Positions 2,937-59,396 of a stretch of 64,000 nt of DNA are shown here, piece by piece. Every line of letters starts with the position of its first letter. Position 1 is the first letter of the stretch. Position numbers and translations under genes: made by a program. Source of the DNA: Paludisphaera borealis (GTDB taxonomy: Bacteria; Planctomycetota; Planctomycetia; Isosphaerales; Isosphaeraceae); assembly GCF_001956985.1 (NCBI RefSeq), contig NZ_CP019082.1, forward strand, positions 4,030,001-4,094,000, in the 5' to 3' direction. The notes beneath the pieces were generated by a model. That model saw only the letters and a list, made by a program, of their open reading frames with translations, did no database searches and was not told the origin of the DNA.

Positions 2937-3038
2937 CGGCCTCGCGCCGCGTGCCATTCCGCGCCGGGAATCCGGGCGTCGTCGGGGGTTGTTTCGGATT
3001 GCGGCGAACCTTCGAGGCGCTTCCCGGCTCTTGGAATA

Positions 3039-3166
3039 CGGAGGGTGGTGCAGGTAAGGGTTCCTTAGAATCTGTCAGCATCGGTTCGAATCCGGTCGCC
3101 AGCTTCGGCTGGTGTAGTTCAACGGTAGAACAACAGAAAACACCTTTATCGATCTTCCCCCCTCCG
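3039..3166 (+). ncRNA. Y RNA 1 (YrlA-like, tRNA-mimicking Ro-binding RNA)
   Basis: Folds as a Y RNA. The ends pair (CGGAGGG 3039-3045 with CCCTCCG 3160-3166) and an inner stem pairs GGTAAGG (3053-3059) with CCTTTATC (3143-3150). Inside sits a circularly permuted tRNA-like module: anticodon-stem-like TCTGT/ACAGA (3071-3075/3133-3137), T arm with TTCGAAT loop (3080-3096), a 7-bp acceptor-like stem CGCCAGC/GCTGGTG (3097-3103/3108-3114) closed by a UUCG tetraloop instead of ends, then a D arm with AACGGTA loop (3117-3131). This is the layout known for bacterial YrlA RNAs, which gate substrate access to the Ro protein. The Ro homologue starts 300 bases downstream. No convincing promoter was found upstream. 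Confidence 0.86.
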
Positions 3167-3174
3167 CTTGAACC

Positions 3175-3315
3175 ATCGTGCGGTGGTGTAGGTAAGGGTT
3201 ACTTCGACTTCCAATCGCGAGGTCGCGGGTTCGAGTCCCGCCCGGCAGATCGACCTGCCGGTAGCTCAGTTGGTTAGAGCGCGTACGTTCCTTTATCGCC
3301 TCTTCCCCGCACGAT
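3175..3315 (+). ncRNA. Y RNA 2 (YrlA-like, tRNA-mimicking)
   Basis: Same architecture as the preceding unit with different bases. The closing stem is 9 bp (ATCGTGCGG 3175-3183 with CCGCACGAT 3307-3315), so the pairing is kept while the sequence has changed. The inner GGTAAGG/CCTTTATC stem is kept. The tRNA-like part is the clearest of the three: T arm GCGGG-TTCGAGT-CCCGC (3225-3241), perfect 7-bp acceptor-like stem CCGGCAG/CTGCCGG (3242-3248/3255-3261) capped by ATCGAC, and D arm GCTC-AGTTGGTTA-GAGC (3264-3280). The anticodon-stem equivalent is only about 3 bp. The closing stem is followed by TTTT (3315-3318), a possible short terminator tail. It is not a functional tRNA: the anticodon loop is opened into the Y stem and the acceptor ends are sealed. 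Confidence 0.88.
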
Positions 3316-3326
3316 TTTCCGCAACA

Positions 3327-3447
3327 GGGCGGTGGTGCAGGACAGGGATACTTATGGCAAGAGCGCCGGTTCGCCGGAGGTGTGGGTTCAAATCCCACCT
3401 GGGCCGCAGGGTTCAGAAGCTCATCCTTGTTCGCCTCTACCCCGCCC
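3327..3447 (+). ncRNA. Y RNA 3 (divergent YrlA-like RNA)
   Basis: Closing stem GGGCGG (3327-3332) with CCGCCC (3442-3447). The inner stem GGACAGG pairs with CCTTGTTC, keeping the geometry of units 1 and 2 with two compensatory changes (U-A to A-U, A-U to C-G). Inside: GAGC/GCTC stem (3361-3364/3417-3420), an added CCGG-UUCG-CCGG hairpin (3366-3377) where a long variable arm would sit, and a T arm GTGGG-TTCAAAT-CCCAC (3382-3398). The acceptor-like hairpin is reduced to CCTG/CAGG and no D arm can be recognised. It ends 22 nt before the Ro start codon, so it either lies in that gene's 5' leader and is cut out, or is made from a shared transcript. Confidence 0.75.
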
Positions 3448-3469
3448 GCTTTGAGTGACAGGGGTCGCC

Positions 3470-4780
3470 ATGGCCACGTTGAACCGAATCCAGAAGATCT
3501 TCACGCACGAAGGGGCTCCGGCCGCTCGCATCGACCCGCTGGCCCAGCTCGAACGCTCGGTCATGTCCTGCCTGCTCTGGGAGGACGAGTTCTATGAGGA
3601 CGGCCAGACCATCGGCGAGCGCATCGCCGGCCTGGTGAAGCAGGTCCCGGCCGAGGACGTCGCCCGCGTGGCGATCCAGGCCAAGGAGGACATGAAGCTG
3701 CGGCACGTCCCGCTCTTGCTCGCCCGCGAGCTGATGCGGACGAAGGAAGGGCGCGCCCTGGCGAAGGACCTGTTCCCCAAGGTCGTCCTGCGACCGGACG
3801 ACGTCACCGAGTTCCTGTCGATCTACTGGAAGGGCAAGCCGGACGAGCCGCTGGCCAAGCAGGTCAAGCGCCACGTCGGCGAGTCGTTACGCAAGTTCGA
3901 CGAGTACCAGCTTGCGAAGTACAACGGCGGCCAGAAGGCCGTCAAGCTGCGCGACGCCATCCGGATCACCCGCCCCAAGCCCCACGGCGACGAGCAGGCG
4001 GCGCTCTGGAAGCGGCTGGTCAAGGGCGAGCTGGCGACGCCGGACACCTGGGAAGTCGAACTGTCGAAGGGGGGCGACAAGAAGGAGTCGTGGACGCGGC
4101 TGCTGGCCGAGAACAGGCTCGGCGGCCTGGCCTTGCTCCGCAACCTCCGCAACATGACGAAGGCCGGCGTCGAAACCGAGTCGATCCGCCAGGGCCTCCG
4201 CGCCTTGAAGACCGGCAGGCTGCTGCCGATCAACTTCATCGCCGCGGCCCGGCACAACCCGGCCTTCGAGTCGGACCTGGAGGCCAAGTTCTTCGAGTGC
4301 TTCGCCGGCCGCGAGAAGCTGAAGGGCCAGACGATCATCCTCGTCGACGTGTCGGGGTCGATGGACGTCGCGCTCTCCGCCAGGTCGGAGATGAAGCGGA
4401 TGGACGCGGCCTGCTCGCTGGCGATGATCGGGCGGCAGATGTTCGAGGACCTGCGCGTGTTCACGTTCTCCAACAGCTTGATCGAAGTCCCGGGCCGACG
4501 CGGTTTCGCCCTGCGCGACGCCATCGTCGGCTCCCAGCCTCACGGCGGGACGGAGCTGGGAAAGGCGGTGACGTCCTTGCCCAAACGCGACCGACTGATC
4601 GTGATCACCGACGAGCAGAGCCACGACCCCGTGCCTCAGCTCAAGGGCTATCTGATCAACGTCGCCAGCAACAAGAACGGCGTGGGTTACGGCTCCTGGC
4701 TGCACATCGACGGATGGTCGGACAAGGTGCTCGACTACATCGCCAAATACGAAGCGAACGACGCCCCGCGCGCTTCGTGA
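3470..4780 (+). CDS. rsr: Ro60/Rsr protein (TROVE domain with C-terminal vWA)
   Basis: 436-aa bacterial orthologue of the Ro 60-kDa autoantigen. Residues 1 to about 275 form the TROVE HEAT-repeat ring, with typical stretches such as LLLARELMRTKEGR, LSIYWKG and LRNLRNMTKAGV. Residues 285-436 form a von Willebrand A domain with an intact MIDAS (DVSGSMD at 293-299, HGGTELG and VITDEQS further on). It is shorter than vertebrate Ro (about 540 aa). Ro proteins bind Y RNA on the outer face of the ring and misfolded RNA ends in the centre; bacterial Rsr works with PNPase in rRNA maturation and decay. ATG 3470 is chosen because AGGGG lies six bases upstream; a GTG five codons earlier has no such site. 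Three Y-RNA units lie immediately upstream. No RtcB or PNPase gene is adjacent. Confidence 0.93.
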   Translation: MATLNRIQKIFTHEGAPAARIDPLAQLERSVMSCLLWEDEFYEDGQTIGERIAGLVKQVPAEDVARVAIQAKEDMKLRHVPLLLARELMRTKEGRALAKDLFPKVVLRPDDVTEFLSIYWKGKPDEPLAKQVKRHVGESLRKFDEYQLAKYNGGQKAVKLRDAIRITRPKPHGDEQAALWKRLVKGELATPDTWEVELSKGGDKKESWTRLLAENRLGGLALLRNLRNMTKAGVETESIRQGLRALKTGRLLPINFIAAARHNPAFESDLEAKFFECFAGREKLKGQTIILVDVSGSMDVALSARSEMKRMDAACSLAMIGRQMFEDLRVFTFSNSLIEVPGRRGFALRDAIVGSQPHGGTELGKAVTSLPKRDRLIVITDEQSHDPVPQLKGYLINVASNKNGVGYGSWLHIDGWSDKVLDYIAKYEANDAPRAS

Positions 4781-4850
4781 AATCAAGGCTCGCCCGCGTG
4801 CCGAGACGGTCGGGGGCGCGGTGTCGGACCGAACCCGTGCCACCCGCCGA

Positions 4851-4929
4851 ATACAAGCTCGAAGCGCCAGCGAGTGAGTTTCCGATCGGCCGTTGGAAGC
4901 ATCCACTCGCTGGCGCTTCGAGCTTGTAT
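4851..4929. repeat. Dispersed palindromic repeat, family A (copy 1)
   Basis: Inverted arms ATACAAGCTCGAAGCGCCAG... and ...CTGGCGCTTCGAGCTTGTAT enclose a variable centre and form a long hairpin (arms about 25 bases). Other copies are at 5043-5113, 5153-5242, 20858-20932, 48866-48970 and 59397-59542. Upstream, 4790-4850 carries a partial family C sequence (CCGAACCCGTGCCACCCGCCG in part). The whole 4781-5360 gap is built of such repeats and has no supported gene. Confidence 0.9.
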
Positions 4930-5042
4930 CGGGGCAGGTTTTCGCGAGGCCATTTTCAGATCAAACCATCATGACGCCGTCGGGACACCCGGCCTCATGA
5001 AAATGAGCTGACGAGAAGTCATGCGGGCGGCCTACGAATGGA

Positions 5043-5113
5043 AGCCCGAAGCGCCAGCGAGTGAATTCCCCGCTGGCCAACCGGAAATTCACTCGCTGGG
5101 GCTTCGGGCTTTC
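5043..5113. repeat. Dispersed palindromic repeat, family A (copy 2)
   Basis: Arms GCCCGAAGCGCCAGCGAGTG and its complement, with one G for C change in the right arm (CTGGGGCTTC). Internal sequence differs from copy 1, showing that the arms, not the centre, are conserved. Confidence 0.88.
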
Positions 5114-5152
5114 ATTTCGCTCCCCGATCGTCCCACGGGCTGTTTTCAGGGC

Positions 5153-5242
5153 AGCCCGAAGCGCCAGCGAGTGCATTGTCTTGCGTTCGCTGACTCGGCC
5201 CCCGGCCGAGGGAATTCACTCGCTGGCGCTTCGGGCTTGTAT
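5153..5242. repeat. Dispersed palindromic repeat, family A (copy 3)
   Basis: Third copy within 400 bp. The left arm AGCCCGAAGCGCCAGCGAGT and right arm complement are intact, and the right end continues into GGGCTTGTATTTCACTCC. Confidence 0.88.
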
Positions 5243-5269
5243 TTCACTCCTCGATCGTCCCGCAGTCGG

Positions 5270-57858: not shown

Positions 57859-58833
57859 TCAGCCGCCGAGGACGATGGCGAAGATCAGCGGGGCGACGAT
57901 GGTGGCGTCGGAGTTGATGGCGAACTTCGGCGTGGTCTCGTCGAGCTTGCCCCAGGTGATCTTCTCGGTGGGGTTCGCGCCGGAGTACGAGCCGTACGAT
58001 TCGTTGGTGTCGGTGATCTGGCAGAAGTACGACCAGAACGGCACGTCGATCTCCATGTCTTGCTGGAGCATCGGCACGACGCAGATCGGGAAGTCGCCCG
58101 CGATCCCGCCGCCGATCTGGAAGAAGCCGACGCCGCGATCGGTGCAATGCTTCCGGTACCATTCGGTGACGTGCATCATCAGCTCGACGCCGCTCTTCAT
58201 CGTGGAGGGCTTGAGTTCGCCCTTCAGGCAGTAGCTCGTGAAGATGTTGCCGAGCGTCGAGTCTTCCCAGCCGGGGGTGAAGATCGGGATGTTCTTGTCG
58301 GCGGCGGCGAGGACCCACGAATCCTTCGGGTCGATCTGGTATTCGCTCTTGAGCACGCCCGATCGGACCAATTCATAGAAATATTCGTACGGGAGCTTGC
58401 GATCGCCCCGCTTCTCGGTCTCGCTCCAGATCTTGAAGATGTGCTTCTCGATCTTGCGGATCGCCTCGTGCTCGGGGATGCACGTGTCGGTCACGCGGTT
58501 GAGGTGCTGGTCGAGCAGCTTGCGCTCGTCCGCGGGGGTGAGGTCGCGGTAGTGGGGGATGCGGACGTAATGGTCGTGCGCGACGAGGTTGAAGATGTCT
58601 TCTTCGAGGTTGTTGGCCGAGCAGGAGACGGCGTGGACCTTGTCCTGACGGATCATCTCGGCGAGCGAGAGGCCGATCTCGGCGGTGCTCATCGCCCCCC
58701 CCATGGCCAGGAGCATCGGCATGCCCGACTCCAGATGCGCCCGGTAGGCTTCCGCGGCGTCGACCAGGGTGGCGGCGTTGAAGTGCCGGAAGTGGTGCTT
58801 GAGGAAGCCGGAGACGATGCCGTTGGTTTTCAT
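57859..58833 (-). CDS. Deoxyhypusine synthase-like protein
   Basis: 324 aa. Conserved throughout with the deoxyhypusine synthase superfamily: MPMLLAMGGAMSTAEIGLSL, VHAVSCSANNLEEDIFNLV, IPIFTPGWEDSTLGNIF, FFQIGGGIAGDFPICVVPML and the lysine segment GANPTEKITWGKLDETTPK, whose Lys would form the aminobutyl-enzyme intermediate. Bacteria lack eIF5A, so the enzyme probably makes a polyamine (homospermidine or similar) from spermidine. ATG 58833 is chosen; the TTG seven codons earlier has AAGGAA only inside its own codons. Confidence 0.92.
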   Translation of the reverse strand: MKTNGIVSGFLKHHFRHFNAATLVDAAEAYRAHLESGMPMLLAMGGAMSTAEIGLSLAEMIRQDKVHAVSCSANNLEEDIFNLVAHDHYVRIPHYRDLTPADERKLLDQHLNRVTDTCIPEHEAIRKIEKHIFKIWSETEKRGDRKLPYEYFYELVRSGVLKSEYQIDPKDSWVLAAADKNIPIFTPGWEDSTLGNIFTSYCLKGELKPSTMKSGVELMMHVTEWYRKHCTDRGVGFFQIGGGIAGDFPICVVPMLQQDMEIDVPFWSYFCQITDTNESYGSYSGANPTEKITWGKLDETTPKFAINSDATIVAPLIFAIVLGG

Positions 58834-58915
58834 GGCGTTTGTGTGTTCCTTCAATAAAGAAAAGAATAGGAGGAGGGCTTGACCATTCGATTCGACCCAG
58901 ACGTTCCGACATTCA

Positions 58916-59239: not shown

Positions 59240-59259
59240 GACGAGATACCCCCTGTAGG

Positions 59260-59300
59260 GCGTCGTCTTGTCATGACCGGGTACGGCGCGTCTCGTCCGG
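59260..59300 (-). promoter_or_regulatory. Guanidine-III riboswitch (ykkC-III)
   Basis: Minus strand reads CCGGACGAGACGCGCCGTAC then CCGGTCATGACAAGACGACG C, nearly the consensus of the guanidine-III aptamer (CCGGACGAGG...CCGUACCCGGUCAGGACAAGACG). The pseudoknot halves CCGG...CCGG and CGCGCCG / CGACGC are kept. It precedes the Gdx start by 20 nt, so guanidinium should turn on translation of its exporter. Confidence 0.93.
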
Positions 59301-59396
59301 GGCCTGATCGGCCGATTCAGATTGTCTTAACAGCATGCCAGATGGCTATTGTACTCGATTTCCCCCGCACGGTAAGGCCTCTTTCGTCTCCGTACG

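Follow-up and report, generated by a model that had tools for sequence, protein, structure and literature searches.

Y RNAs reportedly occur near Ro60 in more than 250 species, a count attributed to Chen in 2014. YrlA, in the passages devoted to it in two papers, combines a basal stem with a circularly permuted tRNA-like body that has T, acceptor, and D arms (PMC8394870, PMC11472068), and the first presents it as a mimic of three tRNA arms: D, T, and acceptor (PMC8394870). The Salmonella rsr-yrlBA-rtcBA operon, according to a portion of one account, carries more than one Y RNA adjoining a Ro60 orthologue (PMC7790460). In Deinococcus (RYPER), according to two papers, a Y RNA tethers Ro60 to PNPase; for other bacteria Ro60 is reported to grip the basal stem, leaving the tRNA-like end to contact PNPase, with the Y RNA gating the ring (PMC8394870, PMC4726728).

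We analyzed a 64,000-nt stretch of the Paludisphaera borealis genome (the window) that contains three tandem units with the hallmarks of bacterial Y RNAs, namely, proximity to a Ro60 orthologue and a long basal stem formed by paired 5' and 3' ends. Units 1 and 2 resemble YrlA (Rfam RF02553; Salmonella YrlA, PDB 6CU1) in their order of T arm, sealed acceptor, and D arm and in a local match to its model, whereas in unit 3 the D arm is divided into two parts that enclose everything else, and there is an additional anticodon-like arm. Over positions 24-84 the RF02553 consensus has no anticodon loop, unlike many of the classic units described below. The locus is like rsr-yrlBA-rtcBA in having multiple Y RNAs beside Ro60, but here 2 to 5 units lie upstream and RtcB is encoded elsewhere. 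The Deinococcus system offers a functional model that may apply to this locus. We consider it likely that Ro60 is served by three Y RNAs encoded next to its gene, with tRNA bodies that the basal stem enters at three places.

The Ro60 locus and its three units

The features of the locus are as follows.

3004..3010, + strand: GCGAACC promoter-like element, 36 nt before GGAGGGTGG of unit 1
3039..3166, + strand: candidate Y RNA unit 1, apparently opened in the anticodon loop, with Ro60 stem, T arm 3080-3096, sealed acceptor 3097-3114, D arm 3117-3131, and cross stem 3071-3075/3133-3137
3175..3315, + strand: candidate Y RNA unit 2, with Ro60 stem, T arm 3225-3241, sealed acceptor 3242-3261, and D arm 3264-3280
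3208..3214, + strand: local anticodon-like loop CTTCCAA of unit 2, on CGA/TCG, preceding the T arm
3327..3447, + strand: candidate Y RNA unit 3, the putative D-loop-inserted form, with D 3' half 3361-3364, anticodon-like arm 3366-3377, T arm 3382-3398, sealed acceptor 3399-3416, and D 5' half 3419-3422
3470..4780, + strand: Ro60 gene with TROVE and vWA domains (Pfam and PDB matches)

At the 5' end of all three units a closing stem is joined by the motif GGTGGTG(C/T)AGG, and at the 3' end CCCC stands before or inside the matching strand; the motif copies lie at 3044, 3182, and 3331, the second and third being 88% and 77% like the first (repeat family D5). An earlier note on this DNA had proposed tRNA-mimicking, YrlA-like units adjoining a Ro60 gene, a proposal that our analysis supports. 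Its closing stems, said to differ in sequence yet stay paired, occur exactly as given: CGGAGGG/CCCTCCG in unit 1 (3039-3045/3160-3166), ATCGTGCGG/CCGCACGAT in unit 2 (3175-3183/3307-3315), and GGGCGG/CCGCCC in unit 3 (3327-3332/3442-3447). The inner helix covaries between units 1 and 3 at two positions (T-A to A-T and A-T to C-G) with pairing kept, as the note had claimed, and the sealed 7-bp acceptor-like stem and D arm that it saw in units 1 and 2 are both present. Unit 3, which it had taken to lack acceptor and D arms, possesses both in another circular order. The tRNA-like cores do differ, as it had said, and the difference lies in where the Ro60 stem enters the tRNA.

On the + strand the units fold more stably than 200 shuffles of each (minimum free energy [MFE] z-scores of -2.5, -4.0, and -2.9 for units 1, 2, and 3), against -0.25 for a neighboring control stretch (200 shuffles). 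For the - strand the z-score is low in unit 2 as well (-3.1) but not in units 1 and 3 (-1.4 and -0.6). Unit 1 has no local anticodon-like loop, and its TCTGT pairs across with ACAGA; in unit 2 the MFE structure favors a different hairpin where the anticodon-like loop is read. Together the units appear to show three entry points for the basal stem, with the assignment of unit 2 the least certain.

The Ro60 protein matches Pfam TROVE at 2.8e-16 (residues 188-260) and vWA_Ro60 at 3.7e-4, the latter below its cut-off, and aligns with the PDB TROVE proteins 9l5y/9kop over residues 12-429 (E 2.8e-29); residues D293, S295, and S297 are invariant in 13 aligned proteins. There is an in-frame GTG at 3455, and Ro60 of relatives begins at the ATG (3470 in the window), which leaves the 22 nt after unit 3 that had been noted before. 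The protein, previously recognized as the sole Ro homologue in the window, occurs once in the entire genome, which also encodes RtcB, away from the Ro60 locus, and a PNPase-domain protein. Palindromic repeats occur on both sides of the locus: before the Y RNAs lies a 27-nt inverted repeat with perfect arms (2817-2902), and after Ro60 a repeat family around AAGCCCGAAGCGCCAGCGAGTGAATT (4850-5243).

No Rfam family matched the Y RNA locus at gathering score. Below it, the YrlA model that the note had suggested searching with matches unit 2 (42.7 bits, E 4e-8) and unit 1 (24.0 bits, E 0.011) locally, both under the gathering score of 69, and fails to match unit 3 at E≤1; the only matches to unit 3 are tRNA (23.0 bits) and mascRNA-menRNA (21.8 bits), each sub-cut-off. 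In nine loci picked from those carrying the unit 3 form, YrlA (E≤0.1) matched the classic sibling in 8 and the D-loop unit in none.

Of 14 loci examined, 10 (the window among them) have the element GCGAACC at 36 to 39 nt ahead of their first unit, and these cover every one of the 8 Isosphaeraceae genomes whose Ro60 is near full length. The element is missing from L017, L019, L021, and L071 and present in L020 from the same family search, and GCGAACCTT is not rare by count in the window (2 matches, 0.6 expected). Inter-unit spacers measure 7 to 16 nt and are alike across the seven three-unit loci compared. The promoter-like element and the like spacers suggest a single transcript, and the shared transcript that the note had put forward is accordingly probable on this conserved arrangement; perhaps an alternative sigma factor drives it, since the GAAC in the element resembles ECF -35 boxes. 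Under this scheme transcription would start from the element at 3004, the units and the Ro60 mRNA would be made as one RNA, and trimming would follow; such processing might, as the note had conjectured, link Y-RNA supply to Ro synthesis.

Arrays and classic units in related genomes

In a phylum-wide sample of 392 genomes, Ro60 was found at E≤1e-30 in the window's genome alone, and breadth is therefore taken from family searches. Ro60 matches at E≤0.001 occur in 12 of 45 Isosphaeraceae genomes and are near full length in 8, the window's genome being one. A scan of genome contigs gave 62 loci, and the upstream DNA of 34 was read by eye. All 14 of a set of loci comprising 13 planctomycete near-full-length Ro60 loci (L001, L002, L003, L007, L014-L021, and L113) and the IMG/VR locus L206 carry 2 to 5 recognized units; the tandem trio singled out in the note is not unusual for the clade. 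Zavarzinella formosa carries Y RNA arrays at three Ro60 loci (L017, L066, and L071), two of them (L066 and L071) interrupted by N runs. No units were seen by eye at L042, a partial Ro60 match, and none were evident, again by eye only, in the 450 nt upstream at L032, L033, and L038 outside the phylum. The units found upstream of Ro60 are of several kinds: classic T-acceptor-D units, minimal hairpins, reduced bodies, and the unit 3 form.

We built a covariance model, R1, whose training rows include unit 3; its best matches in the whole genome are the three units (unit 3, 102 bits; unit 2, 68.3; unit 1, 48.0; next match, 39.7). Across the 45 Isosphaeraceae genomes it gives 17 matches above 45 bits, a line set after viewing the match list; all lie ≤1.2 kb upstream of Ro60 and are confined to the 8 genomes with near-full-length Ro60. 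Beneath that line are weaker matches away from Ro60 (G026, 44.9 bits; G010, 44.1 bits) together with some true units, and weak matches are common, with 43 of 45 genomes having one at E≤0.01. In the family of Granulicella (centre G435; 300 genomes) R1 finds matches at E≤1e-13 in 28 genomes, every one of which belongs to the 62 that have a Ro60 match at E≤1e-30; in G654 and G467 the match is some 1.5 and 3.8 kb away from Ro60, and many R1 matches are classic units. Upstream DNA was taken for 54 of these 62 Ro60-bearing genomes, one stretch ending at a contig end.

Of 76 classic units found, 5 were dropped for too short a 5' stretch and 71 were analyzed at fixed geometry. Among the 71, T33 occurs in 42 units and A37 in 48; a fully paired 5-bp local arm is present in 23 units picked by pairing only, and 22 of these 23 have T33 and 22 have A37, with varied triplets. 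We tried five distances from the local arm to the T arm with 1,000 swaps each: a distance of 5 alone beat every swap, 6 was equalled in 2 of 1,000, 4 in 84, and 3 and 7 gave no signal. Cross pairs 27-43, 28-42, and 29-41 hold in 63, 60, and 49 of 71 units (swap maxima 46, 47, and 41) and local pairs 29-41, 30-40, and 31-39 in 44, 43, and 46 (swap maxima 43, 41, and 39); these swap figures are not probabilities, because the units are related. The idea that every classic unit simply has a cross-paired anticodon stem proved insufficient: outer cross pairs and inner local pairs both beat the swap maxima, so both contribute. By this sequence comparison, many classic units keep an anticodon-loop signature (U33 and A37).

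A tRNA-like body apparently opened in the D loop

After its basal stem, unit 3 runs 5' to 3' through GGCAAGAGC, G, a CCGG-TTCG-CCGG hairpin, AGGT, and the T arm, then CTGGGCC-GCAG-GGTTCAG (3399-3416), AA, GCTC, and the basal stem again. The 7-bp acceptor-like stem includes G-U pairs, and the D stem halves GAGC (3361-3364) and GCTC (3419-3422) flank the rest, with no contiguous D arm following the acceptor. In tRNA terms the letters give the 3' half of the D stem, an anticodon arm closed by a tetraloop, variable bases, the T arm, the sealed acceptor, and the 5' half of the D stem, as if the Ro60 stem had been placed in the D loop of a complete tRNA.

The arm order of unit 3 recurs in 20 further units from Planctomycetota, Acidobacteriota, one Opitutia MAG, and two IMG/VR contigs. 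The D-loop class used for tests (n=15) was selected by arm signature and spacing and consists of unit 3, L003, L021, eleven Acidobacteriota units (8 from genomes in the family of Granulicella aggregans), and one Opitutia MAG unit; all 15 segmentations were verified against the DNA. Later finds in the same order were L088, L206, L247, L291, and L299, plus L090 with a collapsed T loop. The IMG/VR locus L206 looks chromosomal from its content: its Ro60 is 84% identical to the window's, and an RtcB-like ORF, named by sequence, follows Ro60. The L206 unit is a near twin of unit 3. On a 67-kb IMG/VR contig, L247 has a D-loop-type Y RNA beside Ro60 (2295-2418) with an acceptor-like stem of just 4 bp; a PD-(D/E)XK nuclease lies nearby.

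When 3' strands were swapped between the 15 members (2,000 swaps), no swap paired as well as the native acceptor (93/100 pairs; swap mean 0.577), anticodon-like arm (69/70; 0.763), or T arm (75/75; 0.898). The D stem (GAGC/GCTC) pairs in 56 of 60 and is nearly invariant; it yields no covariation information because one strand is invariant. In a MAFFT alignment (A1) the named structure has 89.3% of cells paired versus 75.1% when shuffled, with the closing helix of the D-loop class at 98.1% and the inner helix at 84.2%. Two-sided changes occur in 25 of 38 pairs and covariation is 0.385 versus 0.134 shuffled (0/500), against at most 0.095 for slid versions of the structure; these counts include rows put out of register by loop-length differences, namely, L087 and L091 at the acceptor and several at the anticodon-like arm. 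Compensatory changes, whose absence among homologous loci the note had named as grounds for refutation, are thus present.

These data bear on plain redundancy, in which the three units would be YrlA-type RNAs of equal function and both entry point and arm loss would be drift, the basal stem and a tRNA-like surface of some sort being all that counts. Ro60-proximal units do vary greatly, from full bodies to an anticodon-like arm plus T arm only (L002, L015, and L016) and to minimal hairpins (L007, L017, and L019), and the D stem is lost in the related units L030, L082, L106, and L141, yet these score 82 to 94 bits with R1 (L082, 93.7; L106, 90.4), so that an R1 score alone cannot separate intact from lost D stems. 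Redundancy nevertheless seems unlikely to us, given acceptor and anticodon-like arms that change with pairing preserved and a D-loop form with near-constant spacing in two phyla, though the members were picked by spacing.

A further alternative, quite unlikely in our estimate, is that the D stem of unit 3 never forms, leaving T and acceptor arms with an unrelated hairpin and D-like letters as relics. Such a reading gains from the lack of D-stem covariation and from single-sequence folding: the MFE structure of unit 3 omits both D and anticodon-like arms, the D stem is missing in 11 of 17 members folded (unit 3 included), and in 13 of 17 the mean probability of its pairs stays under 0.5. Against it, forcing both arms costs 0 to 2.2 kcal/mol in all 17 (1.6 kcal/mol for unit 3), and RNAalifold without guidance predicts the basal helices, split D stem, T arm, and acceptor; it misses the anticodon-like arm, the loops of which are out of alignment. 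All four arms are in the MFE structures of L021, L026, L092, and L104, and also, with three D pairs, of L087 and L110.

Unit 3 might instead be a cis-regulatory leader of the Ro60 mRNA, with Ro60 binding its own 5' UTR to stop translation and no separate Y RNA being made. Unit 3 stops 22 nt short of the ATG and the last unit is similarly near it in several relatives, but the L018/G008 array, found by R1, ends about 860 nt upstream of Ro60 and D-loop-type units are more distant in L104 and L136; we hold the leader reading to be very unlikely as a replacement for a Y RNA, and both roles could coexist.

ARAGORN finds no tRNA in the window. Rejoining at the D loop raises the score of a tRNA-HMM built from 53 host tRNAs in all 15 D-loop-class cores, and ARAGORN then calls a tRNA in 8 of 15 (six without an assignable anticodon) versus none in native order. 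For unit 3 the rise is negligible (20.7 versus 20.4) and ARAGORN makes no call, as is also true of the rejoined L206 unit; the window's unit 3 is a weak example of the D-loop form. That the units are permuted or decayed tRNA genes is scarcely credible despite this resemblance once rejoined, given their sealed acceptor ends, conserved basal stem, position beside Ro60, and, in the D-loop class, mostly shortened anticodon-like loops.

Recent capture from host tRNAs was considered and rejected: among 66 distinct host tRNA sequences, the best-scoring matches to the rejoined cores share only 49/67, 58/73, and 55/69 identical letters for units 1 to 3, and the best donors differ among units. Separately, seven tRNA genes in a row were seen upstream of the Y RNAs in Granulicella aggregans (L036, 249-906, - strand; classic unit at L036:1796). 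Genome contig C1 has a dense run of 17 tRNA matches on the - strand, several low-scoring (1528259-1530276; L177).

A possible set of tRNA faces for one Ro60

In the reading we prefer, of three Y RNAs entered at different places, each unit would comprise a Y-RNA-type basal stem and a circularly permuted tRNA body whose acceptor ends are sealed by a short loop. The stem would enter at the anticodon loop in unit 1, at the 5' strand of the anticodon stem in unit 2 (least certain), and at the D loop in unit 3. The Ro60 ring would grip the basal stem, and the tRNA body would act as an outward module that recruits or blocks tRNA-binding partners, e.g., PNPase. Because the handle enters at different points, the three RNAs should present different tRNA faces, and the D-loop form would expose a capped anticodon-like arm along with the acceptor end.

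About evenly poised, in our judgment, is the broader proposition that bacterial Y RNAs are whole tRNAs on a handle that evolution has moved, and that arrays are adapter sets for one Ro60. Handle positions would then include the anticodon loop, the anticodon stem (with a 7-nt loop and U33 and A37 kept), and the D loop (with a capped anticodon-like arm), and tandem arrays would show different tRNA faces to different partners.

The locus appears to be of a known kind, a bacterial Y RNA locus, and the D-loop insertion with its anticodon-like arm appears new, with comparative support across two phyla. Our searches of openly licensed literature turned up no paper on a D-loop form or on a planctomycete Y RNA array, and an earlier description may exist elsewhere. 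A second class of attachment, if true, is missed by the RNA-family model, and Y RNAs would be undercounted; it would also constitute a natural experiment on which tRNA face matters. Units 1 to 3, placed in one array, would let one ask directly whether the tRNA body of a Y RNA attracts partners or just bars access. The U33, A37, and varied triplets of classic units raise the question of why a non-decoding RNA would keep anticodon-loop signatures.

Elsewhere in the window, a Guanidine-III riboswitch match (59257-59318, - strand; 61.6 bits) lies ahead of an ORF with a deoxyhypusine synthase domain (57859-58854; Pfam PF01916, 1.2e-42).
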